A model generated the notes under the pieces. It did no database searches. It saw only the letters and a list, made by a program, of their open reading frames with translations, and was not told where the DNA came from. Both the position numbers and the translations under genes were made by a program. Shown in pieces: positions 23,447-58,819 of a stretch of DNA of 64,000 nt. The DNA is from Linnemannia elongata. Lineage: Eukaryota; Mortierellomycota; Mortierellomycetes; Mortierellales; Mortierellaceae. The DNA lies in the NCBI GenBank assembly GCA_036320915.1, contig JAXBDG010000008.1, positions 1,426,001-1,490,000 on the forward strand, in the 5' to 3' direction. How positions within the stretch are numbered: the first letter of the stretch is position 1; each line of letters begins with the position of its first letter.

Positions 23447-23499
<53 letters not shown>
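23447..23499. repeat. (TC)n microsatellite
   Basis: About 26 uninterrupted TC units, 280 bases after the Kelch gene stop. Confidence 0.95.
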
Positions 23500-23501
<2 letters not shown>

Positions 23502-24215: not shown

Positions 24216-24298
24216 CCTCTATACTCTCCCCCTCTTCACTCTCCTCCTCTTCACTCTCCCCCTCTTCACTCTCCCCTCTACACTCTCCCCTTCTACAC
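24216..24298. repeat. Pyrimidine minisatellite, unit about 16-17 bases
   Basis: About five imperfect copies of a CTCTTCACTCTCCCC-like unit in tandem, all C/T/A on the plus strand. Confidence 0.8.
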
Positions 24299-24927: not shown

Positions 24928-24951
24928 TTTTTTTTTTTTTTTTTTTTTTTT
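24928..24951. repeat. 24-base T homopolymer
   Basis: An uninterrupted T run inside the pyrimidine-biased block. Its length is prone to sequencing error. Confidence 0.9.
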
Positions 24952-26770
24952 AATCACCCCTCAAGAAAACGCTCTTCTAGCCTTGCAACCTTTTCTGTTG
25001 CCCATCATTCCCTGGTACCTATCCTTCTCCGTCGCTTGCCTCCTTGTATATTTTGCCCTTTCCTTCGTTTTTAATATGGAATTGCTTTTTCGTCAATCGC
25101 TTCCCTCTCTCTTATTCTCTCCCTCGCTCTCCCTTTACGTCCACAAGTTTCCCTGTCATCCCTCGCGCTCGCTCTCTTGATCTTGCCGTCTCAACGCACC
25201 CCTCGTTTTGCTCCCTCGAAATTACCTACACCTCCGTGTTAATCCACCCTCTAATATTCTTGTTCTTGTATTACTACCATTTTTTGTTTCTCTTTGCACC
25301 CTCTTACCCTTCCATTTCTCATCTCTCCTCTCACTCTCTCTTTCTCTCTTCTCTTTTCTCATTCATCCTCTCTCTCTTCATCCATCTCTCGCCCTATTCT
25401 CTTCTTAACTATTGCTTTTGTTGTTTTTACTACATTCATATATACTTTAATTTCTTCTTTCTAATTGCCCACAATCACTATTGTCATTTTGCGTCTCGCA
25501 TTTGCGGTTCACATTTTTACATTCACTCTTCTTCGCATCTCTCACTATCTCAACTTACCTCACGTACTCACCTCCGCCATCGTCAAACAGTCTCCATCGT
25601 CACTCACCATTCCTTACTTGTGAGTCTTCCCTCCCTCTCCTTCTCACCTTCTCCAACAGCGGATCCTGATTTACTTTTGTGATCAAATACTCTTGGTCTC
25701 AATCACTGATTGTGCCTGGTTCAGTATTGCCAAAGGGGTTCGGATTGTGGGTGGCTCGTGCTTTGATCAACAATCGTACTGACCAGCAACACACAACGGC
25801 GAAAGGGGACACGGCGCAAACAATTGACGGACAATCACCTACCTCTTCCTGGCCAGTACAGTTCACTTTCACTGCCCATGCAACTCTCATCCGACTCCTC
25901 TTCATCCTACGAAATCACGTACTTCCCCCCTCTTTCACGTCCAAGAAACAAAACAGACGGGACCGTTCTGGACCCCACTTGATCTCTCTGTCCTTCTATC
26001 TCCACACTTCCACCCTCTTTCACTTATGCGCGATGTTAGTGCCAATGCCACCCACCTTCCTTCTTTCGCCATCCCTTTTTCGCCCTACTCCCTCCTCCTG
26101 TTCTGCCCTTCTATCCCCGCCGATTTTCTCTACCTCCTAGTCCTTCTCCCTTTATTGTCCTGGTCGTCCTCCTGCCCAAAAGAAATAGAGAAAAAGTCGT
26201 TCGAGGATGTTTTGGGCAATTTATATTAGCACCTCATGCGTAGCCTTGGGCTTTGCCCAAGAACCAGTTTTCTTAATTGCCCAAAATGTATCCTTCCCTT
26301 CCCTTCCCTGCTTTGCATTGTTTGCCTGTGGTCTGGCCTGGTCTGTGTGAACAAGCAAAAAAAACAAACACACAAACAAAAAGCACCCCCTTGAGCGCCT
26401 CCACCTCACCCCCTTTGAAAAAATGAGAGGCAGATAGAGAGAGGGAGTGGGAGAGAAAAAAAATACGAAAGAGGGAATCGGCCATGGGTTTGTTATGCGT
26501 GCTTTTAAGTCGGATCCACATTTTGAGAGAGGGGAGAGAAAACGAAAAGTTGTTGAACGTGGAAGCGAAGGATGAAGGGAAAAAAAGATGGACGAACAGG
26601 AGAGGGAGAGGAACAAGGTTGAAGGCGGCAGAATTGGAGGGGTGGGGATGCAGATAGCGAGAATGGGAAGGAGAGGGAAGGAGAGTAATGGGTACATGAG
26701 GGGTTATTGGTCGTTCATAAGCAACAAAAAAGTGGACAACAGTATGTAAGGCATTTTGAGCCTCGTTTTG

Positions 26771-36290: not shown

Positions 36291-39200
36291 ATGGCTGACG
36301 GTAAGCACTCAATGCCTCCACCAGCACCAGCAACCATGCAGTCAGTCCGTCCGTCAGTCAGCCAGTCAGTCAACAGCAGCCAGCTTAGACATGTACACAC
36401 AACCATAGCGGCCAAATGATTACCGACAAACGAACACAGATATAAAAGCGTACATTCAGACGTGAGCAGGATCCGGAGTGTGAAGCACGACTGAACTTCC
36501 ATGGCTCACTTCGCAAGAGCTGACTTAGACTTCACTGCATCTACAAGTGCCATGTCTTTACAACAAACTAATTCATTCTTCTTTCCCCCATGACCTGTAG
36601 GATCCGCTCAGTTCAACTTCCCCAAGGAGGAAGAAAAGATTCTCGAGTTCTGGCGCGAGATTGACGCCGTAAGTTTTCATGACCTTTTCGGACAAAAAAC
36701 GCATCGTTTTCCTTCTTAGTGCGCAGGAATAACCCTCCCAGCAAGGCTTACTCATCGTGTGTGAATACATTCCTATACGTGGCCCCCCTTTGTAGTTCAA
36801 GCGCTCCCAGGAACTTAACAAGGACAAGGAGCCTTTTGCCTTCTTTGACGGACCTCCATTCGCCACCGGTCTTCCCCACTACGGACATTTGCTTGCTGGT
36901 ACCATTAAGGTAAGATTATAATAACAGGCGCCAACTGGAGCCCTCGTTCAGTGCATCCCGGATCTTGTTCCTAACCCGCCATTGAACAATTGAACAATGC
37001 TATCTTGTAGGATATCGTCACTCGTTTCGCCCACAGCACTGGACACAGCGTTGAGCGTCGTTTCGGTTGGGATTGCCATGGTTTGCCGGTCGAGTACGAG
37101 GTAGACAAGGCCCTCGGCATCACTGGAAAGGCTGACGTTTTGGCCATGGGTATCGACAAGTACAACGAGGAGTGCCGCAGCATTGTCATGCGTTACGCCA
37201 AGGAGTGGCGCCAGACCGTTGAGCGTGCTGGACGCTGGATCGATTTCGACAACGACTACAAGACCTTGAATGTCGAATTCATGGAGTCTGTGTGGTGGGT
37301 CTTCAAGACCCTCTTCGACAAGGGTCAGGTTTACCGTGGTGTCCGCGTCATGCCCTTCTCGACCGCCTGCAGCACCCCCGTCTCCAACTTTGAGGCTCAG
37401 CAGAACTACAAGGACGTCAGTGATCCCTCCGTCGTCGTCTCCTTCCCTCTCTTGAACGACCCCTCCGTCGCTTTCTTGGCCTGGACAACCACCCCCTGGA
37501 CCTTGCCTTCCAACTTGGCCCTCTGCGTCAACCCCACTCACGACTTTATCAAGTTCTTGGACGAGGCCTCTGGCAACACCTACATCATGATCGAGAAGCG
37601 CCTCTCGATCCTCTACAAGGACCCCTCTAAGGCCAAGATCAAGATTCTCGAGCGCATGAAGGGAGCCGACTTGAAGGGTATCCAGTACGTTCCCCTTTTC
37701 GAGTACTTTTACAAGGAGTTTGAGGCTACCGGTTTCCGCATTTTGAACGACGAGTACGTCGATGATTCTGCCGGTACCGGTGTTGTTCACCAGGCTCCCG
37801 CCTTCGGTGAGGACGATTACCGCGTCTGCATCAACCACGGTGTTATTACCGCCGATGGTCACATCCCCTGCCCCGTCGACGAATCCGGCAAGTACTTTGA
37901 TGTTATCACCGACTTCAAGGGCATGCACGTCAAGGAGGCTGACAAGTTGATCCAGAAGCACATCAAAGGCATGGGCCGCTTGATTGTCCAGACCCAGATC
38001 AACCATAGTTACCCCTTCTGCTGGCGTTCCGACACTCCTTTGATCTACAAGGCCTTCCCCTCCTGGTTCGTTCGCGTCCAGCCCATTGTCGACAAGATGT
38101 TGAAGAACAATGCCCAGTCTCGCTGGGTTCCCGGATTCGTTCAGGAAAAGCGCTTCGCCAACTGGATCGCCAACGCCCGCGACTGGAACATCTCCCGCTC
38201 CCGTTACTGGGGTACCCCCATCCCCATTTGGGCCACCGAGGACTTTTCTGAGATGCATTGCATTGGCTCTTTGGCCGAGCTGGAGGAGCTTTCAGGATGC
38301 GGCAAGTTGACCGACATCCATCGCCACTTTATCGACCACATTACCTTCAAGTCGCCCAAGACCGGCAAGACCATGCGCCGTGTTGAGGATGTCTTTGATT
38401 GCTGGTTTGAGTCTGGATCGATGCCCTACGCTCAGCAGCATTACCCCTTCGAGAACAAGGAGTCCTTTTCTAAGGGATTCCCCGCCGATTTCATCTCGGA
38501 GGGATTGGATCAGACCCGTGGGTGGTTCTACACCCTCTTGGTTCTCTCAACCCACTTGTTCGACACTCCCCCAGCCAAGAACCAGATTGTCAGCGGTCTC
38601 GTCCTCGCCTCCGACGGCAAGAAGATGTCCAAGCGCCTCAAGAACTACCCCGAGGCCAACATTATCTTGGATGCCTATGGTGCTGATGCCCTCCGTCTCT
38701 ACTTGATCAACTCGCCTGTCGTCCGTGCCGAGACCTTGAAGTTCAAGGAGGAGGGTGTCAAGGATGTCATCACCAAGGTCTTCTTGCCTTGGTACAACGC
38801 CTACAAGTTCTTTGTCAACCAGACCGTGTTGCTGAAGAAGGAGTTCAACCACGACTTTATGTACAACGGTGCCTTGAAGAAGAGCGATAACGTCATGGAC
38901 CGCTGGATGTTGGCCTCTTGCCAGAGCTTGATCAAGTTTGTCCGCGAGGAGATGACCAACTACCGCCTGTACACCGTTGTGCCCCGTCTGTTGCGCTTGA
39001 TCGAAGAGTTGACCAACTGGTACGTTCGCTTCAACCGTCGCCGTCTGAAGGGTGAGAACGGTCTCGAGGATGCCACCCAGGCCATGAACACCCTCTTTGA
39101 GGTCCTCTACACTCTGGTCCGCGTGATGTCGCCCTTCACTCCCTTCTTGACCGAGAACATGTACCAGACCTTGAAGAACTTTGTGCCCAAGGACCCCAAG

Positions 39201-40034
39201 ATTGTCGACGATCGCTCGGTTCACTTCTTGGACTTCCCCGAGGTCAAGGAGGAGTACTTTGATGATGATATTGAGCGCGCTATGTCGAGGATGCAGGCCG
39301 TCATTGAGTTGGGTCGTACCACCCGTGAGCGCAAGACCATTAGCTTGAAGACCCCCTTGAAGGAGTTGGTTGTCATCCACCCCGACCCCCAGTACCACGC
39401 CGATGTCAAGTCGTTGGAGTCGTATATTGTCGATGAGCTCAACGTCCGCAGCCTGATTGTCACGTCGGACGAGGCCCAGTATGGCGTCAAGTACACGATC
39501 GAGGCCGATTTCCGTTCGTTGGGAGCCAAGCTGAAGAAGGATGCTGTCAAGGTCAAGAACGCTCTGCCCAAGTTGAGCGAGGAGCAGATCAAGGACTTTA
39601 TCCGCAACAAGGCGATCACCATTGAGGGTCATAACTTGGGTGAGGAGGATTTGACTGTTGTCCGATTCTTTGAGTCGTCCGAGAACAGCTTGGAGACCAA
39701 CTCTGACAAGGATGTGTTGATTCTGTTGGATGTGAAGCGTTACCCCGAGCTGGAGCAGGAGGGATTGGCGCGTGAGATCATTAACCGTGTGCAGCGTCTG
39801 CGCAAGAAGGCTGGTTTGGAGCCTACGGATATGATCCACATGTACTATGAGTTTACTCAAGATCTCAACAATGCGCTGGAGCAGGTCATCAAGGAGCAGG
39901 AGGAGACTCTTGTCCGTGCATTGAAGCGGTCGTTGGAGCCTATTGCTACCAAGAAGGAGGCGGATGCGGTTATTATTGAGGAGGCCCAGGAGGTCAACGG
40001 TTCGACCTTCAACCTTACCCTTGTTCGCGATTAA
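36291..40034 (+). CDS. ILS1: Isoleucyl-tRNA synthetase, cytosolic
   Basis: Four exons (36291-36300, 36601-36668, 36796-36909, 37011-40034) join in frame to 1071 residues, matching yeast Ils1 (1072). Class I synthetase landmarks are complete: the HIGH-box variant HYGH at residues 54-57 and the KMSKR loop at 602-606. The CP1 editing domain lies between them with its Thr-rich and Asp-containing motifs ([21 protein letters not shown]). The anticodon-binding helical domain and the eukaryotic C-terminal extension follow. The enzyme charges tRNA-Ile and edits Val. There is no mitochondrial presequence, as the protein begins MADGSAQ. The first coding exon has only ten bases; it is supported by a GTAAGC donor and frame closure, and no in-frame ATG exists in the second exon before the conserved text. 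Confidence 0.96.
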
Positions 40035-40781
40035 GTCCGCCCTTTTTTTTTTTTTTTTGTTTAGAAAAAAAAGAGAAGATACACTACACATATTAAACAA
40101 CATTACCAAATTGTGAAAAGAAAAGAAAAGAAACAAAGAGAATAGAAGAGAAGAGAAGGAAAAAGGTTTCCTTGTGAAACCATAAGTTCAGGCACCGAGC
40201 GAGGATATATATGTATGTCGTCACATTGTGATCATAAGTTGTGTCTGTGCAAAAAAACTTTCAGTGTCTGTTTGTTCTGCCTGTGTGTGTAAGATCCATC
40301 TGTTTACATTAAGATGGAGGGAAGGAAAAAAGATCAGGCCGACGACAACAATAGGGGCACGGAAGTGAGAGAAGATAAAAACGAGAAAAGAAGGGTGGGA
40401 ACCATGATACACATCAAAATTGCAATGAATGTATTCTCCTACAATATGCTATTGATCCATGATGACCACGTATGCCGTGACACTTCAAATAAAACGCCTT
40501 TTTTGTCTCTTGTTCGTGCTTTTCTCTTCTTCTGCTTCTGCTTCTTCTTCTTCTTCAACTTCTCCTTCTTTAGCTTCTCCTCCTTCTTCAACTTCTCTTC
40601 CCCCTCCTCCTTTTGTCTTCAACTCTATTCTTTAAGTCTTTGACTCCCTCCTCACACAAGCCCTCATTCCTCTCTCACTCACTCTCTCCACTAGAACACC
40701 CATTTCACACCCATTGCATTCACACCCATCACATTCAAACCCACTCACTCTAAACAACTAAAACAAACTACTCCCTTCACA
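40035..40781. other. Intergenic: ILS1 to NTE1
   Basis: ILS1 3' flank, then from about 40500 a pyrimidine-rich NTE1 promoter with CTTCTTCTTCTC-like tracts and a CATTCACACCCAT short tandem (about 40702-40745) before the start codon. No gene is supported. Confidence 0.6.
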
Positions 40782-43700
40782 ATGTCGCTTCTGGTCGACA
40801 ACAACGCTCCAGACTCACTCTTCGCCGCGGCATCGCTCCTCTCCACAGCCGCTACTGCCGTCTTCTCCACAGCCTCTTCTGCTGTCTCTGCTGCTGCTAA
40901 CGCAGTGACAACTTCCTCCTCCTCTACCTTCGTCTCTCTCGCTCCCTCCCCCACAACATCTACAACAGCATTCGCATCAGCTGTCACCACTGCTATTGCA
41001 GCCTTCACCGCCGCTGCTGCTTCGGCCGCAGAGCTACCGCTGGATCCAAAGCCCCCTCATAACAGCAACATCCCTATCAATGCCCATCAGGATAATCAGC
41101 AACAACAGCAACAGGAACCCTATCAACCATCGCACCACCACCATTTCAACCATGGTTCAATCCACGACGCCGAACAACCTGTTACCCCTTTAGGCGCTAT
41201 CCGGTCGCTCTTTTCCTTCTCGGTCACCATGTTGACTTTCATGACAATGACTCTTCCCACAGCACTCTACCGCCTCTTGTCGTGGTCCTTCACACTCCAC
41301 CTCACCTTCACCACCTTGCTCATTGGCATTGCCTTTATATGCTTCCTCGCCTGGGCGGTGATCCGGTACCGCGTCCTCACAAAGTACTCTCGCCTCCCAA
41401 AGACAGGCCAAGGAAAGCACGGTTCTTCGTTCGATTTGCATCCCGACAACCCCTTCAAGAGCCCCCAGGAGGAGAAGGAAGGTCTGAGCTATCCGGACGA
41501 GTTCCTTAGCGCCTTTCTCTCCAGCATCAAAATCTTTGGCTACCTCGAACAACCCGTCTTCCACGAATTGGCTCGACACCTCCAGACGCGTCGTTTGCCC
41601 GCTGGCGACACCATCCTGCAGAACCCAGATCTTGAAAAGTCGTTTTACATTGTCGTCGATGGCTGTGTTCAGGTCTTTGAGCAAGTGGTCAGGGACGAGG
41701 AGGACGGGCATGATGAGGATGAATCAATCGACTCGACCTCTTGGGACGACCCAGATCATGGATACCAACTCTTAAACGAAGTCAAAAACGGAGGCACGCT
41801 CAGCAGTCTGTTTACGATCCTGTCGCTATTTACGGAAAATGTTAAATTACGCCACGAGGATGAGCCCTTGAAAGAATTCAAGAGGTCCGACCCAAGGAGC
41901 AGACAGAACAGCAGCAACAACCTTAACAACAATTGCAATAACGACAACAGCAACAACGATGGTGAGGATCCTACCAGTCCGACAATGACCTCGACCCAAT
42001 CCGACCAGCGTAAGAAGCACGAGGGCAGCTCGTCGCTCTCACCACCCCCCTTCTCTTCAGGGAAAAAGAAGCACTCCTCTGCTGCTCACGGACACGGACT
42101 TCGAACCAAAGCAGCCATCCACACCCCGACCAGTCCGCTCTCCAACCCGGATCACATGGCGCTCTTCGAGGAAGATGGCACCCCTGTGGCAGACTCGCCC
42201 AACGGTCTAGACATGACCCCTCGCCAGTCGGACATTCATGGCTTTGAGGATTCAGAGTACCCACCAGTGTCGAGACAGGAGCAATATCAGCGACAGCAGC
42301 AACAGCAACCATCTCCCACTCCTTCGAGCCATAAATCTCCCAAGATGAAGCGCCGTGTGATTGTCGCCAAGGCTATGGTCGACACCACACTCGCCGTCAT
42401 CCCAGCAGAGGCTTTCCACCGTCTGACACAAAAGTTCCCTCAGGCAGCAGCACATATTGTGCAGGTCATTCTGATTCGGTTCCAACGAGTGACCCTACTG
42501 ACGGGACACAAGTATCTCGGTCTGACCAAGGACCTTTTGCGGATGGAGCGAAGCATCAACGAGATCGGGAGCTATGGTTTGCCACCAGATTTCTTCCGAC
42601 CCCGGACGATGGAGTACCTCAAGGCAAAGTTCAGCGCCGTTCGGGATGAGAGTGACGACGATGACCATCCTATCGCCATCCGCATGAGGAATTCGCGCAA
42701 GCGTGCTAATCGCCTGGTAAGAAGAATACGTGTGAAATGCAGTTGTTACTTGCTGCTTTAAGCTCTGTTTCTTGTGTTTAGGAAATATATCGCTAATTGC
42801 TTAATTTACATTGTGGTTGGTGGTTTTAGGGTACAAAGGGCATAGACGGAAGGTCGGCGAGCAACAGCCCCAACCCAATGTCGCCTACTATTGACAGCGG
42901 TGAGCACGTCCGTCATGGGTCTGGATTCAGTGCCCTAATGGGTGACAACGAGGAAGAGGACAGCTATTTGCGGGATCAAGTCATGGAGTGCCTCTCAAGA
43001 AGCATCGGTCTTGTTCAGTCTCCTACCTCAAAGCCTAATCTACGACCAGACTTGAAGACGACTGGAAGCTCGGACTATTTTTCAGCCATGTTTCAGGCAA
43101 GCATGACGGGCTCGAGTGGGTTTGGCGGCTACCCGATGCGCAAGACTGGATCTTCGACCAACTCGGATACGGCCAGCATGGGCATGGAGGACTTAAACAA
43201 CTCCACCTCGTCCTCGACTGTCCCGTCGGTCATGAGCGAGATGGAGAACGATGTCGAGATCATGTACTTCCCAGCAGGAGCGACCTTGGTCGAGGAAGGC
43301 GAGCGAAATGCAGGGCTGTTCTTTGTCATTGACGGAGTCTTGGATGTCTCGATATCGCCCATGCAGCAATCTAAGCAGGAAAAGACAAAGACGGATTTGC
43401 CAACAAACATGTTTGGACACCACCTCTCCTCCTTGGATCTCAAGGCAAACCTCACTACTTCGGCAAAACCAACTATCACCATGCCCAACAGTGGATCCAT
43501 TCACAAGAAGCGGGCGCACCCACTATTCTCGATCCAGGCAGGAGGACTGGCAGGGTACCTTTCGGCCCTCTCTGGGTACCCGTCTTTTGTGAATGTCAGT
43601 GCACACACCAACGCCTATGTCGGCTATTTGTCCAAGGCAGCCCTTGATCGCGTCATGGAGCGTAACCCAACTGTTCTCTTGACTCTTGCCAAGCGACTCA

Positions 43701-45817
43701 TCACCTTGGTTTCTCCCATCGGTATGTCTTGACAAGTTATAGGCATGGCGAATTCAGACAATTTTATCCGCATCTCAAGTATTGTACTGACGTTTTCGAT
43801 TTACCTATTCACTACTCACTTGCCAGTGCTTCATCTGGACTACGCGATGGAATGGATGCAAGTCAACGCCAGCCAGGTGCTTCATCGACAGGGCGACGAT
43901 TGCGACTCGATCTACATCGTTTTGAACGGACGGTTGCGTACGATTCTGGAGAAGGAGCCAGGCAAGATCGAGATCTTGGGCGAGTTCAGTCAGGGCGAGT
44001 CGGTCGGAGAGATGGAGGTTTTGATGGGCACACCATTCCCTTCGACTCTGCACGCCATTAGAGACACGGAGGTGGCAAGAATGCCAAAGTCGCTATTCAA
44101 CGCGTTGGCACAGCGACACCCAGAGATCACCATTCGCATTTCGAGACTGATTGCTCAGAGAGCTAGCGACGCCCTGAAGATGGGTTCCAACATCAAATCT
44201 GGGGGCGTCACACCTGACTCGGCTATCAACAACTCTAACCTCAGGACCATTGGAATCATGCCCGTTTCTTCACGTGTTCCTGTGGCCGAGTTTGCGGACC
44301 GACTTCGCTCTGCGTTGCTTGGGATTGGGTCTACTGCTACCTTGCTGAACCACAGCACGGTGATGGGTCTCCTTGGCAAGCATGCGTTCACCAAGATCGG
44401 AAAGCTCAAGCTGGACAACTGGCTGAACGAACAGGAGGAGCAGGCGCAGATTGTTCTCTATCTCGCTGACGGTGGCCTCACATCTCCTTGGACTCAGACC
44501 TGTATCCGACAGGCTGATTGTATTCTGCTGATCGGCCACGGTGATGAGGATCCTGCGGTGGGCGACTACGAGCGACTCCTTGTCAGCATGAAGACGACGG
44601 CGCGCAAAGAGTTGGTTCTGCTGCACGCGAATCGACACTGTGCTCCTGGATCGACGGCGGCGTGGTTGAAGTCCAGAGTGTGGGTCCATGCGCACCATCA
44701 CATTCAGATGCCGTACAAGGGTCCGACCATGTTGAGCGACCAGGCCAGGAAAAAGACCATCATGAACCTTAAAGATCATCTGGAAAAGTTCTACACCAAC
44801 ATTCGACACAGCAACTCTCAAAAGAGTCCTGCGTTTAACGGAAACAGGAGTGACTTTGCCCGGTTGGCTCGACGATTGACTGGACAGACTGTCGGCTTGG
44901 TCTTGGGTGGAGGCGGTGCTCGTGGAATCGCCCATATCGGTGTTATCAAGGCACTGGAGGAGGCTGGAATTCCGATTGATATCGTGGGTGGCACCAGTAT
45001 GGGCGCCTTCATTGGAGGTCTCTATGCGCGTGAATCGGACAATGTGGCCATCTTTGGACGTGCCAAGATGTTTGCAGGGCGAATGGCGGCCAAGTGGCGT
45101 ATGGTGGCCGATTTTACGTACCCAGTGACTTCGTGGACGACAGGACATGCCTTCAATCGCGGTATCTGGAAGTGCTTCAGCGACACCCAGATCCAGGACT
45201 TTTGGTTGTCGTACTACTGTAACACCACCAACATTACGTTCTCAAGGATGGAGATGCACCAGGCCGGATACGCGTGGCGCTACATCCGTGCGTCGATGTC
45301 TTTGTCCGGTTTCTTGCCACCGCTGTGCGATAACGGACACATGTTGGTCGACGGAGGGTACATGGACAATCTGCCAGTCGAGTTCATGAGGTCCCTAGGT
45401 GCCAACACCATCTTCGCGGTCGATGTCGGGAGTGACGATGACACGACGCTTCACAACTACGGCGACAGTCTTTCGGGATGGCTTGTCCTCTTGAACCGAT
45501 GGAACCCTTTCTCGAATGTGTACCGGAACATTCCCAACTTGGCCGATCTGCAGTCAAGACTGGCGTATGTGTCGAGCGTGAAGCAGTTGGAGGCGGCCAA
45601 GGCGACCCCCGGACAGTTCTTTTACTTCAAACCCCCCGTCCAGGACTTCGGGACATTGGAGTTTGGACGGTTCTTGGAGATCTGTGAGGTTGGCTATGAG
45701 TATGGAAAGGAGATGCTGGAGAAGTGGAATAAGGAAGGTCGGCTGGGCGACTTGCTGACCGAGAAGGGGAGCGCCAAGGGCCGTAGTGGCAAGCGTATTC
45801 GACGCAACTCGATCTAG
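40782..45817 (+). CDS. NTE1: Lysophospholipase NTE1 (patatin-like, cyclic-nucleotide-binding domains)
   Basis: Three exons (40782-42716, 42830-43721, 43827-45817) join in frame to 1605 residues, typical for fungal Nte1 (about 1500-1700). After a long Ala/Ser/Thr-rich N-terminus, one membrane anchor is seen near residues 165-195. Three cyclic-nucleotide-binding-like domains follow, broken by low-complexity inserts rich in Asn, Gln, Ser and Lys. The C-terminal patatin domain has the oxyanion motif GGGGARG, the nucleophile elbow GTSMG (Ser about 1333) and the dyad Asp in DGG (about 1451). The enzyme deacylates phosphatidylcholine and lysophosphatidylcholine at the ER, releasing glycerophosphocholine. 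Whether the cNMP folds bind ligand is unclear. The gene is convergent with the cysteine-rich gene. Confidence 0.95.
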
Positions 45818-46401: not shown

Positions 46402-48074
46402 TTAGAAGAATATAGTGCGGGTTTTGTCCTATGAAAAAGAAAAAAAAAAACAAACGGATAATGAAGCGTGATTAATGGTCAAGTTCGTCATGAGAGCATC
46501 GCCACATCATGCCACAACGAAACAAAAAGTGAAAGTGAAGAACTTACGCCAGATATCAACGACTGCGTTGGTGGGACATCCGTGTCGTTCGCGTCTTCAG
46601 AGGTCACCAAACACCTGGCAATGTCCTCAAGACCGGTAATGAATGTGTTGAGTAAATCCTTGAAGAGGTTAAGGAAGGCAAGGTTGATAACAAAAGCCGC
46701 GCCCTTGAGGGCTCCAATGACAATACCGATGCCCGCCGATGAGACGGCATTAAGGCCCTTGGCGATCGCGTCAACAATCCCGTTTATGACGGGGGCTAGG
46801 AGTTTTCCGAAGCCAAAAGGAATGTTGCCGATGATGTAGTCGACCAAGCTCTGGATCAGGATCTTCGCGATCTCGATAGCGCCCATGCACCTGGCCTTCT
46901 TGCCACCGCAGTCTCCTGCGACATCAGCAATGCCCAAGAGGGCGAGGATACCGTCCGTCTGGGATTCACCGGAGGAATCAGCATCCGGGACGAGTCCAAA
47001 CATATTAAGGATCCCGACGAGCATTCCAACGACCCTGCCGACAGCCGCTCCTCCTCCGTTCTGCAAAGTAATCGCGACCTGCTTGATGGCCTCCAAGATC
47101 GGAGTTGTGAAAATGGGTCCAATGACAGGAATGTTGTTGAGGGCCTTTTGGATCCATTCAATGATATTAGCAAGGGCCCCTTGCAACCGATCACCATAGG
47201 CCGAGCACTTGTCTGCGAACACCGTGATATTAAAGCCTAGTTATGCGACGTTAGAAGGTAAAAGGAAAGCAAGAAAAAAAATAACCACAACGGTTAAGAT
47301 TCGCCGTTGGAAAGGCGCATGCTACGCGTCAAATTCCAAATGCCTCCCAAATTCAAATTGAAAAACAGACATCCATACCTTCGCATCTCAAGGCCTCTTT
47401 GGCAGCCTCAAAGTACATGTTGACGGGGTTTGCCGCTTGCTGGTAGATGCTGGCCTTAGCAGAAATGACTCCAATGATTCCGTTGAGGAGCTTTCCGGCC
47501 TCTGGCAGTGTCGAATCGTTGCGCGTCTTGAAGACATCGTCAATGATCATTGTGACATTGTTGATCTGCTGAGTCATGTCCTTGATCGTGACGTTGGCAT
47601 CTCCTGCAGTCTCCGCGAGCTCGTTCAAATACTCAATGGTCTGGTCGTTGAAATCTTTCATAAGCTTGGTGATTCCAGAGCAGTCGGACTTGTTGCCTCC
47701 AGTACAGGCAATCAAGGTGTCGATCAGAGGGATAAGATCTCGCATATCCTGGATAAGAGGCAGAGTCACGTTCACGTTCTCCTTGGGGAAGAGTGGCATG
47801 ATGCTGACCATGACTTTACCGGCTCCGATAATCGTCTTCTTGAACGTACCCGCCTGAAGGCCTAACTTCTCGGGTCTCGCGGCGTCTTTCGTCAAGTCGG
47901 CCTTGATCTGGTCGAGAGCCTTGATGAATGGCGGGTAGGCGTAGAGCGTAACGCTGCCGGCTGGGTTGAACACGTTCGAGGACCCGCTGATATTGATTTT
48001 GTAGGTCTCCATGAGGATCTCCATCTGCTCGATAATCAAGTCGATCTGCTTGGTCACGCTCGTAACCTGAGCAG
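46402..48074 (-). other. C-terminal helical, sequon-rich domain of the giant protein
   Basis: Encoded by most of exon 10, exon 11 and the nine-codon exon 12. It is almost free of the repeat cysteines. The first half is amphipathic helical text with isolated Cys pairs and sequons NIS, NVT, NKS and NDS. The second half has hydrophobic Gly/Ala-rich segments (GGGAAVGRVVGMLVGILNMF, then GIGIVIGALKGAAF). These look membrane-active or able to pack as a helical bundle. No GPI-type end is present in the preferred model, which finishes DKTRTIFF. Confidence 0.65.
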
Positions 48075-51000
48075 AGCAATCGTGCTTGCACGAGTGCTCT
48101 GGCTGTGTGTATTCACAAGCGGATGTGCAGTTCTCGAGCTTGGTGGGAGTTGCTCCAGGTGTAGTACACTCATAAAGGGCAGTCGGTTCAAGCTTGCAGC
48201 TCTGAGCGAACGCAGAACCGCAAGTCTATTGACAAACGATTCAATTGAAGAACATAGTTGTTAGCTAACGAAACATATCAATAATTTGCATGAACATCAT
48301 GTCAATGCTCGACTCCACAAGGGGAAAGGTATACCTTATGGTTGTCCTTGCAGGTACAAGAGTCACCGCACTTCGCAGGTTCAACAGCGTCAGCCTCCAT
48401 AAAGCCAGCTGGAACAACTGTCTCGGAAGTTTCGTCAGCAGCAGCAGTTGGATCGACGCCCTTGATGCAGAGCTTGTCGCCGCAGTCCTCTGCAAGAACT
48501 GGATCCTCTCCATTCTTGCAGTTGTAGACAGCATTAGGAATGAGGTTGCACTTGTCGGCAAACGAGGATCCGCAGACTGCAACATCGGTAGTACACTTGC
48601 ATCCAGTCTTGCACTCTCCATCGGCACATCCCTCGGGGCATGTAGTGATGGCTGTGTGGTTGGGGCACATAACGAGGTCGTCGGGTTTGTAGTTGCATGC
48701 AGGCGGGAAATTGCTGCCGCAGGTAGGTTTCTTGCCAACACACTCGCAGTCGTTCGAGGCTCCGCAGACATCGTTTCCTCCAGCGACCGAGGTACAGATC
48801 GACATTGGGTCGCAGGCCTCCTTCTTGGTAGGGGTGGTCTTGTTTCCGGTGCAGGTGTAGAGCGAGTTGTCCTCAAAGTTGCACTTGGGTGGGAAGGTGC
48901 TACCGCAGGTGTCGCCGTTCTTTCTGCAGGCGCATGGGTCGATCTTGCACTCGTCGCTGCCATCCTTGACCGTACATTCGGTTGTGCATGTCTCCTTCTC
49001 AGTCGGTGTAGAGTTGATGGCATCGCAATGCATGAGAGTGTTTGCCTTGTAGTTGCAGGCTGCATCAAACGTAGACGAGCAAAGCTGTAAGGAAGAATGA
49101 AATTGAGTAGAAAGAATAATAAAGAATGTGTCAGTGTTAGACAGGTACAATATCTTGAAGTAGACTTATAAAAACCAAAGGTGTCGATACTTACATCCTC
49201 GTTGGCGACCTTGCAAGCGCATTTGTCGATACAAAACTCATCGCCAGTGGCATTGGTTGGAGGCTTGTTGTTGGACGAGCAAACGCCAGGGTTGCAGTCT
49301 TTCTCCTCCTTGGGGACTTGGCCAGTGGCACAAGAATAGAGAGTGTTGTCCGTAAGTTTGCACTTGTCGTCAAAGGTGATTCCGCAGTGCTTGCCGTCAT
49401 CCTTGCAAACGCACTCCTCAGGCGTACACTTGGGTCCATAGGTATGCACCTTGCAGGTGTCGGGCGCAGTGCAATCTTCGACCTTCTCGGGCTTGCCGCT
49501 AGCTCCGCACTTGTAGACTCCTTCGGCGGGAAGCTTGCAGGCCGGGGTAAAGTCCTTGGAGCACTTAGTGTCGGTTCCGGTACACTCGCAAAGGTCCTTG
49601 CAGACTGCTGGTTGATCGGCGGCAGGCTTGTCGCAGATCTGGTCCTCTTTGCAGGTCTCTTGGACTTTGGGCGCGGCACCTTTGCCAGAGCACGAGAGGA
49701 TGGTCTCCGCAGGAGTATCGGCGGGGAACACCTTCTTGCAAGTGTCAGAGAGACTCTTGAAGCAAATGGCTTTATCGTCGGTACAGAAGCACTCTTCCAA
49801 TGGTGGAGTAGTATCGCAGGAGTCCAGACCGGGCTGGGCTACACAGACATTAGGGTCGCAAGTCTGGGGATCCGTAGGTTTGGCGCCAATAGCAGTACAC
49901 TTGTAGAGAGATTGCTTCTCAAGGCCGCAGCGCTCGGGGAATGTAGAACCGCAAACCTAATAATTGCAGGGAAATAAATAGTCAGTTGTGAATACTGGCA
50001 GCTTGGAAACGCTCGGGTAGCGAATCATTTCAAATACGCAATGTATATGTCCCAACGTACAAGGTCATCGGCGGTCTCACAAGCACAGTCCTCGGCACAG
50101 GTATCAGTAGCAAGGGCCTTGAACACGGCAGATGCAGCGCCCATTGCAGGCGGAGATCCCGTGCAGTGGCCAGGCAAGCAGTCCTTCTCGAAGACAGGGT
50201 CGCCACCCTTGGTGCACTTGTAGAGCGACGTAGCACTCAGCTTGCAGGAAAGAGGGAAGATGGATCCGCAAGAAGTGCCATCCTCGCTACACTTGCAGTT
50301 GCCACAGAAAGCGCCACTACCGTTAGACACACACTCAGTGCCGCTCGGGCAAGTCTTGTCCTTAATGGGCTCACCACTGTCCGAGCACTTGTAAATGGTG
50401 TTCTTCTCCAGCCCACAGTTGTCCGGGAATTCGTTCGAGCAAACAACCGCCTTGCCTGCGCAGTTACAGCTGTTGCCTCCACACTGGGCACCGTCGGCAT
50501 GGCTGATACAAACAGTTCCTGGGATACAGACTTTCTGGACCTTGGGAGTAGCTCCAGCAGCATCGCAAAGGTAGATAGTCAAGGCGTCGACCGGCAAGGA
50601 TTCGACCGTCTTGCACTCAGCAGGAAGCTCAGAACCGCACACTCTGCCAGCCGCCTTGCACGCGCATGGGTCCTTGGCGCACTCGTCGGCAGCGCCATCA
50701 TCATTAACCTTGCATCCGTTAGCGCACTTGTCCTTAGGGGTAGGATCGGAACCGGCAGCAGAGCACGTGTAAAGGGTCTCCTTGTCGAATCTACAATCGT
50801 CGGCGTACTCCTTTCCGCAGATAGGCTTGTCGTCCTGGCAAGTGCAGTCAGTCTTTGGTGGCGTACACTCGTCGGGTCCATCCTTAATCGTGCAGGAACC
50901 ACTCGGGCAGGGCCTCGTCGCGATCGGACTAGAATCCTTGCCACCGTCGCACTTATAGAGAACATTAATATCATACTTGCAAGTCTCTTTGAAAGCAGAG

Positions 51001-54000
51001 CCACAAACTGGATCGCCGTCCTTGCATTTGCAGTCGCGGGTGTCAGTGTCAGGTGCGCATTGGTCGGAGGCACCAGCGATGATAGAGCATCCCTTGTCGC
51101 AGGTCTGGCCAAGGACAGGATCTGCTCCGGCAGCTGAGCACGAGTAGAGAATGTTATTCTCCAACTTGCAGTCAGCGCCAAAGGCTGAACCGCAGACGTC
51201 TGAGTTGTCCTTGCACTTGCAGTCGTCTTTGCATCTGTCAGCAACACCAGCAGGATTGGTCACGCAGGCGCCAGAAGCACATTTCTCATCGAGGACTGGA
51301 TCCTTACCGGCACCTGAACACGTGTAAAGGGTACCGCTGTCGAGCTTGCAATCAGCGCCAAAGGCTGAACCGCAGACGTCTGAGTTGTCCTTGCACTTGC
51401 AGTCGTCTTTACATCTGTCAGCAACACCAACAGGATTGGTCACGCAGGCGCCGGAAGCACACTTCTCACCGGGGACTGGATCCTTACCGGCACCTGAACA
51501 CGCGTAAAGGGTACCGCTGTCGAGCTTGCAGGTAGGGTCGAAGTTGGATCCGCAAATAGCCTTGTTGCCCGGGCAAGTGCAGTCAGTAGGTGGCGTGGGC
51601 TTGCATCCGTCGTCGCCAGCCACGATTATACACTCTCCAGCTTTGCACTTGTCGCCAGCGATAGGCTTGGAGCCCTTGCCGCCAGCGCACTTGTAGACGG
51701 TATCCTTGTCGAGTTTGCACGATGGTGGGAAGGTAAAACCGCATGCAGCAGTTGAATCCTTGCACCCACATGGGTCTTCGGTACACGCATCGTTTCCGGG
51801 CTCGGACGTGCACTTATTGGAAGCACAAACCTCCTTGAGTTGGGGGGTTGATCCAGCGCCATCCTTGCAAGAGTAGATCGCGCCGATGTTGAACTTGCAG
51901 TGGGATGGGAAAGTGTTGCCGCAGACCTCGTCGGTGTCAATGCACAGGCACTCCTTGCCATCTCCGCACCTGTCATCACCAGGGAGAATAGTGCAGACCC
52001 CGTCCTTGCATTCCTCGATGAGTGTAGGCTCGGCGCCCTTGCCATCGCACTTGTAGAGTCCTCCCTCCTTCAACTTGCAGTGATCAAGGAACGAGTAACC
52101 GCAGGTCTAAGAAAAGTTAACATACAAGACGAGTTAGCATACAACAGAAAACAGAGCGTCTGATACAGAGTGAACACCATAGTAGTAAAATTTGCATATA
52201 CTTACAGGTCCTTCGCCAGAGCAAAGGCAGGAGTTCGTGCAGGTGTCATCGGCCATCTTCTTGAAAATGACAGCAGCAGCCCCAATCGATTCCTTGGAGG
52301 CAGAGCAGCGCTCAGGGTAGCAGTCGCTCTTGGGAACTGGGTCGCCGCCCTTGGTGCAGGTGTAGAGGACCGTGGACTTGAGCTTGCACGATAGACGGAA
52401 GGCCTCACCGCAAACTACTCCATCCTTGTGGCACTTGCAGTCATCAGAGGCGCAAACAGCTTCGTCGCCGATAGCGAGGCAAACTTTTCCAGCAGGGCAG
52501 GTCTCGACTTCCTCGGGCACACCAGTTGAAGAGCACTTGTAGATGTTGTTCGCTTTGAGGCTGCAGTCAGCGGGGAAAGCATCCGAGCACCGCTCAGCCT
52601 CGCCCTTGCAAGTACAGTCGGTACCACCGCAGGCAGCGCCTTGGGGAGCCTCCTTGCTCTGGCAAATAAGACCGGATGGGCAGATAGCCTGGATTTCAGG
52701 AAGTGTGCCTTTGCCCTTGGGGCAATAGTAAATGGCGCCCTTTTCGACGGCAATCTTGCTTTCGCACTCCTTAGGAAGGTCGAAGCCGCAGACAGAGTTC
52801 CAGCCTTCGGGGCATGTGCACTTTTCTTCAATGAAATCAGTGCCACACGTATCGTCGCCGACGTTGACGTTGCAACCAAAGGCGCACTTCTCGCCAGGGG
52901 TTGGCTTGCCGGTCGCTCCGTCACACTTGTGAATGGTGTCCTTATCGTAACCGCAGCTGTCGGGATAGGTTGATCCGCAAGCAACGCTCTTGCCTTGGCA
53001 ATCACAGATGTTGGTAGTGGTGCACTTGTCGTTAACAGCCTCAGCCTCAAAGACGGCAGCAGCGGCAGCCATCGAAGCCTTGGTTGCAATACATCCCTTG
53101 GGGCTGCAGTCCTCCTTAAAGACTGGAGGCTCTCCCTGTACGCACGTGTAGAGATTAGTGGTCTTGAGCTTGCACGAAAGAGGGAAGACTTGACCGCAAA
53201 CGACTCCATCGGATTTGCACTTGCAGTCGTTGTTGGTGCAAATAGGTCCGTCGCTGAGCTTGACGCAGGATTCCGTGGTGTCGCAGCTCTTGACCTTCTC
53301 AGGCTTGCCTCCGGGAGTGCACTTGTAGATGGCGTTCTTCTCCAATTTACATCCATCCTTGAACGAGCTCGAGCAGACTTCCTCATTGCCGGTGCAGTCG
53401 CAAGTATCTCCACCACAGGCAGCACCCTCAGGAGCGTCCTTCTTGATGCAGACAGAGCCAGGCGGGCACGTGGTCAACTCTTTGGGCTCGGTGCCAGTAT
53501 TACCAGGGCAGTGGTAGATCTTGGTGTGATCTGCCTTGCACTCCTTGGGGAGGTCTGAGCCGCAAACGGGTGAAGTGCCGGGGGTTGGGCAGGTACATTT
53601 GCTGGTGGCGCAATGGTCTTCGCCGTTGGTAACAGTGCATCCGCCCTCCTTGCAGTCCTCGCCCTTGGTGGGAGTAGCTCCATTGCCATCGCAGTTATAA
53701 AGGCTGTTGGGCTCCAACTTGCAATCAGGGCTGAAGGTAGAGCCGCAAACCTACATGGACATAATTATATTAAGCCGAGATTAATACTTGACCAAAACAC
53801 CGTACAACAAAACCTAACAACGTTAAAAATAAAAATGACTTACTGATCCCTTGCCAGCGCAAGTACACTCCTTGTTGCAAACATCGGCAGCGGCAGCAGC
53901 CTCGAAAATAGCAGAAGCAGCCAATGAAGCCTTGGATGCCGAGCAGTGGCCAGGAGCACAGTCCTTCTGGAAGATTGGCTCACCATCCTTCGTGCAGGTG

Positions 54001-57000
54001 TAAAGAACAGTGGTCTTGAGCCTGCATGAGAGTGGGAAGACTTCACCACAGACAGTACCATCATCAGAGCATTTACAGTCATTGCTAACGCAGCCGGCAC
54101 CATCACTGACAGACACGCAGGTCTTGGTGGCATCGCAGACCTTGACCTTCTCGGGCTTACCACTAGCGGTACACTTGTAAATCGTGTTCTTCTCGAGACC
54201 GCACTCGCCAGGAAATTGGCTCGAGCAAACTTCGTTATCACCCTTGCAGCTGCAATCGGCGGCACCACAAGCAGCACCCTCAGGAAGAGGCTTTTTAATG
54301 CATATTGTACCAGGCTTGCACTCGGACAGAGGCTTGGGCTCGGTTCCGGAACCACCGGGGCAGTAGTAGATCGTGTTTGCTAAAGCATTGCATTCCTTGG
54401 GAAGTTCAGCGCCGCAAACAGGGGCGGTTCCAGATCCAGGGCAAGTGCACTTGGAGGTCGAGCAGCTATCGTCTCCGTTACTAACAGTGCATCCTCCCTC
54501 CTTGCATCCCTCGCCAAGGACGGGGGTAGCACCGGGGCCATCACACTTGTAGAGAGTGGATGGCTCGAGCTTGCACACAGGGTCGAAGGTGGAACCACAA
54601 GCGGGACCCTTGGTACCGCACTTGCAGTTCGGGATACAAACATCTGCTGCTGCAGCATCAAAAACTGACGCAGCGGCCAGCTGAGACTTGGAGGCAGAGC
54701 AAAATCCGGGAGCGCAGTCCTTCTGGAAGACTGGAGCCTCGCCCTTCTTGCAAGTGTAGAGAGCAGTGGTCTTGAGCCTGCACAAGAGGGGGAAGATCTC
54801 GCCGCAGGATATACCATCCTCGGTACATTTGCAGTCATTAGAACCGCAGCCAGCTCCATCACCAACAGATACACAGGTCTTGGTGGCATCGCAGACCTTG
54901 ACCTTCTCGGACTTACCACCAGCGGTACACTTGTAAATCGTGTTCTTCTCGAGACCGCACTCGTCAGGGAATTGGCTCGAGCAAACTTCGTTGTCACCCT
55001 TGCAGTTGCAATCGGCGGCACCACAAGCAGCACCCTCTGGAAGAGGCTTCTTAATGCACATAGTACCAGGCTTGCACTCGGACAGAGGAACGGGTTCAGT
55101 TCCGGAACCACTTGGGCAGTAATAGATCGTGTTAGCTGTAGCCTTGCATGAGCTAGGAAGCTCGGAACCGCAAACAGGAGCGAGACCAGTTCCGGGGCAG
55201 GTACAAGTGCTGGGGTTGCACTTATCGTCACCATTGTTGACAGTGCATCCTCCTTCTTTGCAGACCTCGCCAGGAGTGGGAGTTGAACCGCTGCCATCGC
55301 ACTTGTAGAGTGTGGATGCCTCGAGCTTGCACTCGGGTTTGAATGTAGAGCCGCAGACCTATTGCATGTTGAAATTCAATAAAGGCTGGTGAGTGCAAAA
55401 TTTACATAGAAAATGGCCCTCACTCCAAGAGGGTGTTGTATATAGCTATCAATACTTACTGGACCCTTGTTCTGGCAAACACATTCTTTGGTACAGACAT
55501 CGGCAGCGGCAGCAGCCTCGAAAACGGCAGCGGCGGCAAAGGATGACTTGGAAGCAGAGCAGAATCCGGGAGCGCAGTCCTTCTGGAGAACGGGGTTGCC
55601 ATCCTTCTTGCAGGTGTAGAGAGCAGTGGTCTTGATCTTGCAAGAAAGGGGGAATACCTCACCGCAGACAGTTCCGTCATCAGGGCACTTGCAGTCGTTG
55701 CTTGCACAGACGGCGCCATCACTGAGCTTGACGCAAGATTTGGTGGTATCGCAGACCTTGACCTTCTCGGGCTTACCACCAGGGGTACACTTGTAGATGG
55801 TGTTCTTCTCGAGGCCACACCTGTCAGGGAACTGACTTGAGCAGACCTCTCCGTTGCCAGTGCAGTCGCAGTTGTCAGCACCACAAGCAGCACCTTCGGG
55901 CGAATCCCTCTTGATGCAGATGGTACCAGGTTTGCACTCAGACAAGGGCTCGGGTTTGCCTCCAGAACCGCCGCGGCAGATGTAGATAGTGTTGGCGTTA
56001 GCTTTGCAAGACAGAGGGAGCACACTACCACAGACAGGAGCAGTTCCGGATCCGGGGCAAGTGCACGTATCGGTGTTGCACTTGTTGTCGCCATTGTTGA
56101 CTGTGCATCCTCCCTCCTTGCAGTCTTCACCGGGAGTAGGAGTAGAACCGTCACCATCGCACTTATAAAGAGTCGACGGCTTGAGCTTGCAGTCAGGGTT
56201 GAATGTGGAACCACAAGTCTATGTAAACAAGTCAGTATTTAAAACAGTGGTCAGCCTAAGAACATTTTCATCTTTTATGTGACAGGCAGATGAAAAACAA
56301 ATTCAATTGAAGCGCAGGTATTGTTTTTGACTTACTGGACCCTTTCCAGAGCAAGTACATTTTTCAGCACACTTGTCATTGGCAGTGGCGGTGAAAACGA
56401 GTGTAGCAGCAAACTGGGCTTTGGAGGCAGAGCAGCGGTCGGGGAAACAATCCTTTAGTAATTTAGGATCGTCGCCCTTGGTACAGGTATACAAAGCAGT
56501 GGTCTTGAGCTTGCAGGAGAGAGGGAAGATCTCGCCGCAGGAAGTACCGTCCTCAGTGCACTTGCAATCAGTGTTGGTACAGCCGGCGCCGTCACCAACT
56601 TGCACACAGGCCTGGGTGTCCTTGCAGGTCTTGACCTTCTCGGGCTTACCGCCGGGAGTGCACTTATAAACGGTGTTATCCTCCAATTTACATTCAGCGA
56701 GGAACTGGTTGGAGCAGACCTCTTTGTCGCCTGTGCAATCGCAGGTACCAGATCCGCAAGCAGCTCCCTCGGGTGAAGGCTTCTTGATGCACACAGTACC
56801 GGGCTTACACTGAGACAAGACCTCCGGCTTGGTACCAGAGCCGCCGCGGCAGATGTAGATGACGTTGGGCAAGGCATTGCACTCTTTGGCGAGATCGTGG
56901 CCGCAGATGGGGTCAAAGCCAGAACCGGAGCATGTGCAGGGGTCAGTGTTGCACTTGTCGTTGCCGTTGTTGACCGTACATCCTCCTTGACCGCAAACCT

Positions 57001-58819
57001 CGCTAGGAGTGGGAGTGGAACCTTCGCCGTCGCACTTGTACAAGGTCGATGCTTCGAGTTTGCATTCGGGCTTGAATGTCGAGCCGCAGACCTATTGCGC
57101 AAATGCAAATAATATCAAGTATGAATAATCATAGGCATATGTACCAAGGAAACAGTAGAAAATAGGATCTCAAAGCATTCATTGTAGCCATGACTTACTG
57201 GTCCCCTTCCAGTGCAAGTGCACCGCGGGACACACTTATCGTTGGCAGTCGAGGTGAAGACGGCAGCAGCAGCCAACTGGACCTTGGAGGCAGAGCAGCG
57301 ATCAGGGAAGCAATCCTTCAGAAGGACTGGGGGTTCGCCTTTCTTACAGGTGTAAAGAGCAGTGGTCTTGATTTTGCAGGAGAGAGGGAAGATCTCACCA
57401 CAGGACGTGCCATCTTCAGAGCACTTGCAGTCATTGTTGGAACAGCCGGCACCGTCACCGACAGACACGCAGGTCTTGCTGCTATCGCAGGTCTTGACTT
57501 TCTCGGGTTTACCACCGGGAGTGCACTTGTAGATTGTGTTCTTCTCCAATTTACATTCATCAAGGAACTGACTCGAGCACACTTCGTTGTCGCCCTCACA
57601 GTCGCAGGTACCCGATCCACAGGCAGCGCCTTCAGGTGAAGGCTTCTTGATGCACACAGTGCCGGGCTTGCACTCGGACAAGGGTTCGGGCTTAGAGCCC
57701 TTACCACCGCGGCAGATATAAATAGTGTTGGGGTCAGCAGAGCAGGAGGCGGGGAGATCATGCCCGCAGACTGGGTCGTCACCAGTTCCGGGGCAGGTGC
57801 AGTCGCCTGGAGGCTCAATAGTGCCACCGCAGATCTTTGCATCGACAAGGACAATAGCTGGGGGCTCGCCGATAGCACTACAGCGGTAGTGGGTCTTGGC
57901 ATCAAAGTCGCATCCGTAGAGCTTGGAACCGCAGAAGTCACCGACGGCAACGCAGAGGTTCTGGTAGAGGTGCTTGTTTTTGTGATGATGGTGGTGACCG
58001 TGACCATGGCCATGACCATGCTTCTTGCCATGGTGGTGCTTGCCATGGTGGTGGTGGCCGTGATGGTGGTCCTTCTTGTGCTTGCCGTCGTTGTTAGTGG
58101 CTTCAAACTCGTTAGCACGTTTGGCTAAGATCGTCTCGCCAGACTCCTCGGTATCTTGGGCAGCCAAGGCACGGGCAGCGGCACAGTTGGAGGGGAGATC
58201 CTTGGAGCAAGGAGTGTCCATGACGATGTAGACCTGCTCGGGAGGAATGACATTGTTCTGGGCTTCGAAAGTGGCTTGATCCTCCTTGGTACTGTGGATT
58301 ATGATGGGAGAGAACTTCCGAGGGCAGCCGATCTTGTCGATAATATACCCATCACAAACAAGGTTGATCTCCTTGTCTATTTTATGGGAAGCATGAGAGG
58401 TGAAATGAAAGAGTGGGGAAAGGAATTAATCCACGTTAGATCACCTGCAAGACGCGAAATTAAGTTGTAGTCGTCATTTGACGCGCGCACACTCGGAGCT
58501 TAGTAAACGTAGAAGAATGAGGACAGGGAAGGATCAACGTACCGATTTGCACCTTGGGGGGTTTGTGACGGTGGGGCTTCTTGTGAGGCTTCTTGTGGTG
58601 GTGCTTGCCATGATGATGCTTTCCATGGTGTTTGTGGTGGTGGTGACCGCTGTGGTCATGGTGGTGCTTCTTATGACCGTTGGTCAGCGCCTCGTAGTCT
58701 TGGTTGGATGGGTTGACTACGTCCGGGGCTTCCTGTCCAAGGACAGAGCGCATCGAGACAAGGCAGGTAACGCTGGCGATAGCCACCAAGGTAGTTAAAC
58801 GCCGCGAAAAGAACTTCAT
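46402..58819 (-). CDS. Giant secreted modular cysteine-rich protein, family not recognised
   Basis: Twelve exons on the minus strand: 58819-58543, 58376-57199, 57091-56336, 56218-55460, 55358-53844, 53750-52206, 52106-50061, 49956-49195, 49084-48335, 48225-47379, 47236-46548, 46428-46402. They total 11151 bases, close in frame and encode 3716 residues. A signal peptide (MKFF start, hydrophobic to about residue 28) leads into two His/Lys/Gly-rich tracts with a Kex2-like Lys-Arg between them. About 48 cysteine-rich units follow, with consensus C-x-C-x6-C-x7-C-x9-C-x12-C-x4-C-x10-C and a conserved LY-x-C. A C-terminal domain of about 500 residues (exons 10-12) has eight N-x-S/T sequons and long Gly/Ala/Ile-rich hydrophobic helices. 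The cysteine spacing resembles peritrophin-type chitin-binding cores, but homology is unproven. Extracellular or wall location is inferred. The tiny last exon is the weakest part. Confidence 0.8.
51181..51540 (-). repeat. Recent 180-base tandem duplication inside exon 7
   Basis: 51181-51360 and 51361-51540 align without gaps. Over the first 170 positions I count seven differences (about 96 per cent identity), all transitions. Each copy encodes one 60-residue unit, so the duplication is in frame. Confidence 0.9.
53844..55358 (-). repeat. Tandem 756/759-base module pair without an intervening intron
   Basis: Exon 5 contains two complete ABCD modules: 55358-54603 (756 bases) and 54602-53844 (759 bases). 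The junction GP-ACGSTF sits exactly where other modules carry an intron. Parts of the two modules (for example 54184-54366 and 54940-55122, offset 756) are nearly identical. Confidence 0.85.
57952..58819 (-). other. Signal peptide and histidine-rich N-terminal region of the giant protein
   Basis: Exon 1 encodes a hydrophobic leader ending near SVLGQ, then an HHHK/GKHHH-rich tract. Exon 2 encodes about 70 ordinary residues with three cysteines, an LAKR site suited to Kex2 cleavage, then a second tract of His/Gly repeats (HGHGHGHGHHHHH near 58000). Such tracts can bind Zn, Cu or Ni, or be charged at low pH. The role here is unknown. Confidence 0.7.

Follow-up and report, generated by a model that had tools for sequence, protein, structure and literature searches.

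A single gene on the minus strand of a 64,000-nucleotide stretch of the Linnemannia elongata genome (contig JAXBDG010000008.1, positions 1,426,001 to 1,490,000; called the window here) encodes a protein of 3716 amino acids that carries a long array of small eight-cysteine units between a histidine-rich N-terminal region and a helical C-terminal domain. It is one of five giants of this kind in the genome. We tentatively read it as a secreted wall or matrix protein whose CBM14-like modules would cross-link chitin or chitosan, and give this reading somewhat less than an even chance. The architecture is undescribed in the libraries and papers searched.

An earlier note on this DNA had proposed one gene of 12 in-frame exons with roughly 400 cysteines. 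Rebuilding the model from the sequence reproduces it unchanged, with the same length and ends, and yields 394 cysteines (Table 1). All 11 introns have GT-AG borders and lengths of 93-166 nt, internal stops are absent, and introns 1 and 10 are in phase 1 with the remaining nine in phase 0. A splice-site programme, trained on the window gene itself, returns exons 2-10 and 12 identically but places the ATG later and the exon 11 acceptor 24 nt later. The database relatives P0031, P0032 and P0033 keep the residues that the later acceptor would remove and read CEG(F/Y)(N/D)IT over the junction. Their termini, PPTQSL-S...TLTFF, resemble the PPTQSLISGDKTRTIFF encoded by the 27-nt exon 12. Because these relatives match that version, exons 11 and 12 as first proposed are preferred. 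Evidence from relatives on the start codon is mixed: P0029 starts MKFLSRRVVALAAAASIACLL, resembling the MKFFSRR of the window gene, but annotated P0033 starts at window residue 23 (MRSVLG). An arrangement of several separate genes is rejected, since the open exons join in phase and database proteins span unit runs and the exon 10/11 and 11/12 joins, these being the places where outside support was checked.

Cutting the protein at every C-x-C motif yields a degenerate first unit followed by 47 units with eight cysteines each, which agrees with the approximately 48 units claimed previously. The spacing had been called fixed. Each of the 47 units does have eight cysteines, but the intervals vary (C-x-C-x6-8-C-x7-C-x9-15-C-x8-13-C-x3-5-C-x4-32-C), and the last loop is x20-22 in each fourth unit of the front half of the array. 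The consensus of 236 units from the five genes is CxCxxxgxvCGsxFPxxCxlxxxtlYxCxgxGxxPxxxxxCxxgxCxxxxxxdxC. Its eight cysteines are kept in 98-100% of units, the first two by construction, and Gly11, Phe14, Tyr26, Gly32 and Pro35 in 76-94%. Mean identity among the first 28 units of the window gene reaches 0.67 at lag 4 and 0.64 at lag 8, and stays at 0.34-0.35 at lags 1, 2, 3, 5, 6 and 7. The four-unit modules are under purifying selection. Ratios of nonsynonymous to synonymous substitution rates (dN/dS) among six of them are about 0.12-0.34 in the 14 of 15 pairs with finite dS; these ratios are rough, as dS is saturated in the fifteenth pair and exceeds 1 in most others. A chance origin of the gene is excluded by this regularity, by dN/dS and by the related proteins in other species.

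The fold predicted for the unit is nearest to the peritrophin-A/CBM14 chitin-binding fold, an assignment that is supported but not proven. The earlier note had suggested structure prediction of one four-unit module. The AlphaFold2 model of exon 3, which holds such a module, is folded, with a mean predicted local distance difference test (pLDDT) of 82.6 and a predicted template modelling score (pTM) of 0.70, and its secondary structure recurs unit by unit. The best structural neighbours of the predicted unit in the PDB, with modest scores, are fusexin domain IV and EHEP, and baculovirus VP91 tops the viral library. Fusexin domain IV and EHEP are both described as peritrophin-A/CBM14 type in their source papers (PMC9259645, PMC10619976). 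EGF and TNF-receptor chains occur in the Foldseek list at E 0.4 or worse, and the absence of EGF, TIL and hevein from the VIA list is no evidence against those folds.

The CBM14 fold is defined here by three plus two antiparallel strands and by disulfides I-III, II-VI and IV-V, and its six-cysteine spacing is given as CX15CX5CX9CX12CX5-9C in PMC10619976. We propose that Cys2, Cys4, Cys5, Cys6 and Cys8 of a unit, together with the first CxC cysteine of the next unit, correspond to CBM14 cysteines I-VI, and that Cys3-Cys7 would form an added fourth disulfide. This assignment draws on spacing, a few residues compared by eye and the start points of two structural alignments. The published spacing is not reproduced: the unit has eight cysteines, and the mapped spacings are mostly x14-16, x9, x11-13, x13-16 and x3-4, with longer outliers.

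Several observations weigh against a CBM14-like wall protein. The CBM14 Pfam model (PF01607) has no match above cut-off in exons 2-11, the 10 of 12 exons searched with Pfam. Over the whole genome at E 1 it finds two places, both on contig C23 and neither in a giant, and CBM19 (PF03427) at E 1 matches ten places, none in the five giants. Profile comparison of the unit with the CBM14 and CBM19 genes of this genome, with two sequences in each profile, gives 0.35-0.58, and reversed controls give 0.21-0.76. In the predicted model of P0034, a relative with one unit and the C-terminal domain, the single unit has a pLDDT of 30-54. The window protein has two tryptophans, and its cysteine count after the signal peptide is odd, so that parity leaves the domain frame unfixed. 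Neither a kinship with CBM19, judged from the order of cysteines, nor one with CBM14, judged from profile comparison, is supported. The peritrophin-type resemblance described in the earlier note has modest, independent backing from fold comparison (PMC10619976, PMC9259645, PMC6626001); the CBM14 and CBM19 sequence tests failed.

The family was traced in the 51.1-Mb assembly of 32 contigs, in which the window gene lies on contig C31. The 114 matches to exon 3 are spread over five contigs: besides the window gene, there are clusters on C32, C9, C2 and C7, whose paralogs are named here by contig. Exon 10 has full-length matches in C32 (E 3e-26), C9 (6e-20) and C2 (6e-7), and in C7 its unit part alone is matched. 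Rough paralog models comprise 3264 (C32), about 5100 (C9), about 2700 (C2) and 3299 (C7) residues. In C2 and C9 the models have poor tails and miss the true starts, and the C32 and C7 starts lie slightly further upstream. Unit-like cores are in frame within these models in 41 of 41 cases for C32, 28 of 29 for C2, 43 of 46 for C7 and 49 of 52 for C9.

All five genes share an intron place. Phase-0 introns lie directly 5' of the third cysteine of a unit in 8 of 11 cases in the window gene (by eye), 42 of 47 in C7, 18 of 36 in C9, 4 of 7 in C32 and 4 of 17 in C2, where the C9 and C2 totals include introns added by model faults that may be unreal. From the fourth exon onward, 39 of 45 exons in C7 have lengths of 161-198 nt, which corresponds to one unit (by eye). 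Complete unit exons of the window gene (3-9) hold four to eleven units each. Unit identity peaks at lag 3 in C9 (0.46) and at lag 8 in C32 (0.70), where adjoining units are 55% alike on average; C2 and C7 lack a clear peak. In the simplest history, the original state would have been one module per exon, with block amplification and intron loss following later and separately in each gene. The window array is still growing, as seen in the duplication of a 180-bp unit inside exon 7. This intron place marks off single units in most exons of one paralog and blocks of at least four in the window gene, and the gene set is a clean record of protein growth through exon duplication.

Two paralogs have further features of their own. 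C32 contains an uninterrupted open exon of roughly 5 kb (2692599-2697668), whose 28 unit-like cores share one frame and are in many cases nearly identical. This is a recent expansion, and its length may differ among strains. The C7 paralog (1481214-1496749) has 48 predicted exons, mostly of one unit, and no C-terminal domain was found in it.

Both ends of the window protein have counterparts elsewhere. The signal peptide and two His-rich tracts noted earlier are present, the former as a signal-peptide-like start judged by eye, and 43 of the 62 histidines fall within the first 284 residues. A start homologous to exon 1 is present in P0029; signal-peptide-like starts are in frame in C32 and C7, and C2 and C9 have upstream candidates. 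Stretches related by eye to the four-cysteine N-terminal domain occur in P0003, P0021, P0029, P0030 and paralogs C9 and C32. The C-terminus had been described as rich in glycosylation sites, and 8 of the 14 N-glycosylation sequons indeed lie within the C-terminal domain. The P0034 model is all-helical after the unit, with a mean pLDDT of 71.5 (residues about 61-290 mostly above 80, the last 200 mostly 50-70). Seven cysteines of this domain are common to the window gene, C32 and P0031 (by eye).

Library searches give the family no name, as the earlier note had anticipated. Pfam models above cut-off were absent from the 10 exons searched and from the C-terminal domain, as were NCBIfam models from five exons. 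PDB sequences queried with exon 5, the unit profile and the C-terminal profile gave nothing above cut-off. Weak matches in exon 2 to AF-4, DUF6602, Zip and ZrgA are read as composition, mostly of the His-rich tract. Sub-cut-off matches in the C-terminal domain to DUF948 (E 0.0006, 20.3 bits against a cut-off of 37.2), ATG17-like and PMC2NT are read as helical composition. The C-terminal profile drew nine PDB chains (best E 0.0065, a designed protein), including designed proteins and the ESAG6/7 transferrin receptor, which are read as chance among helical proteins; structural neighbours of the domain are assorted helical bundles within chance range. Among the papers listed by literature searches on Mortierella, Linnemannia and Mortierellaceae, no title or opening of an abstract seems to describe the family.

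Relatives in other species were found by protein searches; in those with exon 5 and the C-terminal domain, only the candidates sharing most words were scored and candidates were limited by length. Exon 5 retrieves 30 database proteins, 19 with an organism name and 11 without; all 19 belong to Mortierella, Linnemannia, Podila, Gryganskiella, Lunasporangiospora or Actinomortierella. The C-terminal domain retrieves six proteins, all named and all from the Mortierella group, and a diverse nine-row profile retrieves two, one of them named and from the same group. Five of five relative species checked in taxonomy are Mortierellaceae. Mucoromycota, the range named in the earlier note, is broader than the one seen in these searches: every named relative is from the Mortierella group, a restriction as found here. 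In P0033 (L. hyalina KI688_008477, 491 aa), an exon 1-like His stretch is joined straight to the C-terminal domain and the units are absent; either they were lost there or annotation skipped them.

The most likely role, by analogy with insect peritrophins, is that of a secreted multivalent cross-linker of wall polysaccharide. The signal peptide would direct the protein into secretion. Some 48 CBM14-like modules, with eight cysteines apiece that presumably pair in four disulfides and with almost no linker between modules, would form a long stiff rod. The many weak sites on this rod could bind and cross-link chitin or chitosan of the fungus's own wall or outer coat. Metal ions held by the His-rich tracts might tether or cross-link one end, and a second attachment or assembly point could be provided by the helical C-terminal domain. 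The long disulfide-rigid secreted rod of the earlier note remains the best-supported reading, although we infer its disulfides and stiffness. A broader proposal seems possible but doubtful: a private Mortierella-group family of secreted rods with some 30-75 CBM14-like modules and an added fourth disulfide in each. These rods would cross-link chitin or chitosan of the wall, several members would have metal-binding ends, and each paralog would have separately amplified a single-exon module, one, three, four or eight units at a time.

Other functions can be considered for such a rod. It might be an adhesin that shows its modules to soil particles, bacteria, hyphae or animals, with array length as a tunable reach, as in yeast flocculins. 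Its secreted start, the varied and recently growing array lengths and the likeness of C32 units at adjoining positions and at lag 8 are consistent with this role, but the modules are under purifying selection, Pfam adhesion domains are absent above cut-off in the exons searched, and no glycosylphosphatidylinositol (GPI)-type hydrophobic tail of about 15-20 residues is seen by eye at the end of the protein (PPTQSLISGDKTRTIFF); we consider an adhesin unlikely. A metal-binding or metal-cross-linked coat, with Zn, Cu or Ni bound at the His tracts and possibly at CxC motifs, is rather unlikely as well. The concentration of histidines near the N-terminus argues for it, as do His-rich tracts in C32, C7, P0003, P0004, P0029 and P0030. 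However, in the modelled parts, whose true starts are missed, the N-terminus is Lys-rich in C2 and acid-rich in C9, so metal binding may not be a shared core function, and extracellular cysteines in a confidently folded unit would more likely be oxidised.

A symbiotic role as a secreted shield or decoy, in which the protein would mask or trap chitin fragments or plant polyphenols in the manner of Avr4 or EHEP, is improbable. Known effectors of this type are small, and five giants, four with a helical C-terminus, look structural; in its favour, EHEP is a tannic acid-binding protein (PMC10619976) and ranks among the two best structural neighbours. An ice-nucleating protein is a very remote prospect. 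Pfam contains an ice-nucleation repeat model, and no InaZ-type solenoid family is among the Pfam matches at E 1 in the 10 exons, a result obtained without direct comparison to a fungal ice-nucleating protein. Mortierellaceae do produce membrane-independent ice-nucleating proteins, but these are described as InaZ orthologs forming a beta-solenoid with six plus two cysteines (PMC12978214). Ice nucleation is rejected on the eight cysteines of each unit, the unit-wise secondary structure and the lack of any Pfam repeat match in the 10 exons.

Comparison with known systems places the wall cross-linker closest to peritrophins. Insect peritrophins bear several chitin-binding modules in tandem, and like other CBM14 proteins they are secreted arrays of small cysteine-rich modules to which the predicted unit fold is nearest. 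In contrast, the window protein is fungal, has eight rather than six cysteines per unit, combines about 48 modules with His tracts and a helical C-terminal domain, and has no CBM14 hidden Markov model (HMM) match. Cryptosporidium oocyst wall proteins are likewise large, secreted, Cys-rich and wall-building, with His-containing repeats. EHEP of Aplysia kurodai is Cys-rich with tandem CBM14-fold domains, and its PAD2 region aligns to one unit, but it has three domains of six cysteines each and binds tannins (PMC10619976). Fusexin1 domain IV is a single domain of an archaeal membrane fusogen, with only two disulfides (PMC9259645). CBM19 proteins of this genome show by eye a similar cysteine order and a 'Y/F-S-K-C...C-x-x-G' stretch, but HMM and profile support are absent. 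On contig C23, two small secreted-looking proteins 5 kb apart (2927880-2928014 and 2933081-2933194) have CBM14 above cut-off.

Walls of Mortierella-group fungi are rich in chitin and chitosan, and the rod, if read correctly, would be a candidate protein scaffold for them. For a common group of soil fungi, five giants in a 51-Mb genome amount to a major investment in proteins for which the searched family libraries offer no name. If the modules are CBM14-like, a chitin-binding design known mainly from animals has expanded strikingly here. The modules could also find use as compact cysteine-rich building blocks.

Table 1. Features of the giant gene in the window
Feature	Position	Strand	Remarks
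Whole gene, 12 exons, 3716 aa, 394 Cys	46402..58819	-	rebuilt with GT-AG introns
Exon 1	58819-58543	-	rebuilt model
Exon 2	58376-57199	-	rebuilt model
Exon 3	57091-56336	-	rebuilt model; one complete four-unit module
Exon 4	56218-55460	-	rebuilt model
Exon 5	55358-53844	-	rebuilt model
Exon 6	53750-52206	-	rebuilt model
Exon 7	52106-50061	-	rebuilt model
Exon 8	49956-49195	-	rebuilt model
Exon 9	49084-48335	-	rebuilt model
Exon 10	48225-47379	-	rebuilt model
Exon 11	47236-46548	-	rebuilt model
Exon 12, 27 nt	46428-46402	-	rebuilt model
Exon 1: signal-peptide-like start (residues 1-28, by eye) and first His-rich tract (about residues 49-90)	58543..58819	-	translation
N-terminal domain, four Cys (LVCDG..IID..CP ... 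PCS..LP..C)	58160..58376	-	relatives, by eye
Second His-rich tract (about residues 190-229)	57967..58086	-	translation
Degenerate first unit (LCVAVGDFCG...)	57802..57957	-	occurs in relatives too
47 eight-cysteine units, introns included	48076..57801	-	cut at C-x-C; four-unit super-repeat in front half
One 180-bp unit duplicated recently (two copies, 95% matches)	51165..51530		inside exon 7
C-terminal domain of about 470 aa with 8 sequons; model all-helical	46402..48075	-	three paralogs and six database proteins related

Elsewhere in the window, neighbouring open frames at 40695-45817 (+) have cyclic-nucleotide-binding-like and patatin-like stretches and resemble an NTE1-type lysophospholipase. 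Other open frames resemble an FTR1-type iron permease (5010-5918, +), translation elongation factor 3 (30851-33397, -) and isoleucyl-tRNA synthetase (37011-40034, +). Pyrimidine tracts at 23447-24298 include 26.5 copies of a TC repeat as well as a CCCTCTACACTCTCC repeat, and GC skew is -0.415 across 24001-26000.
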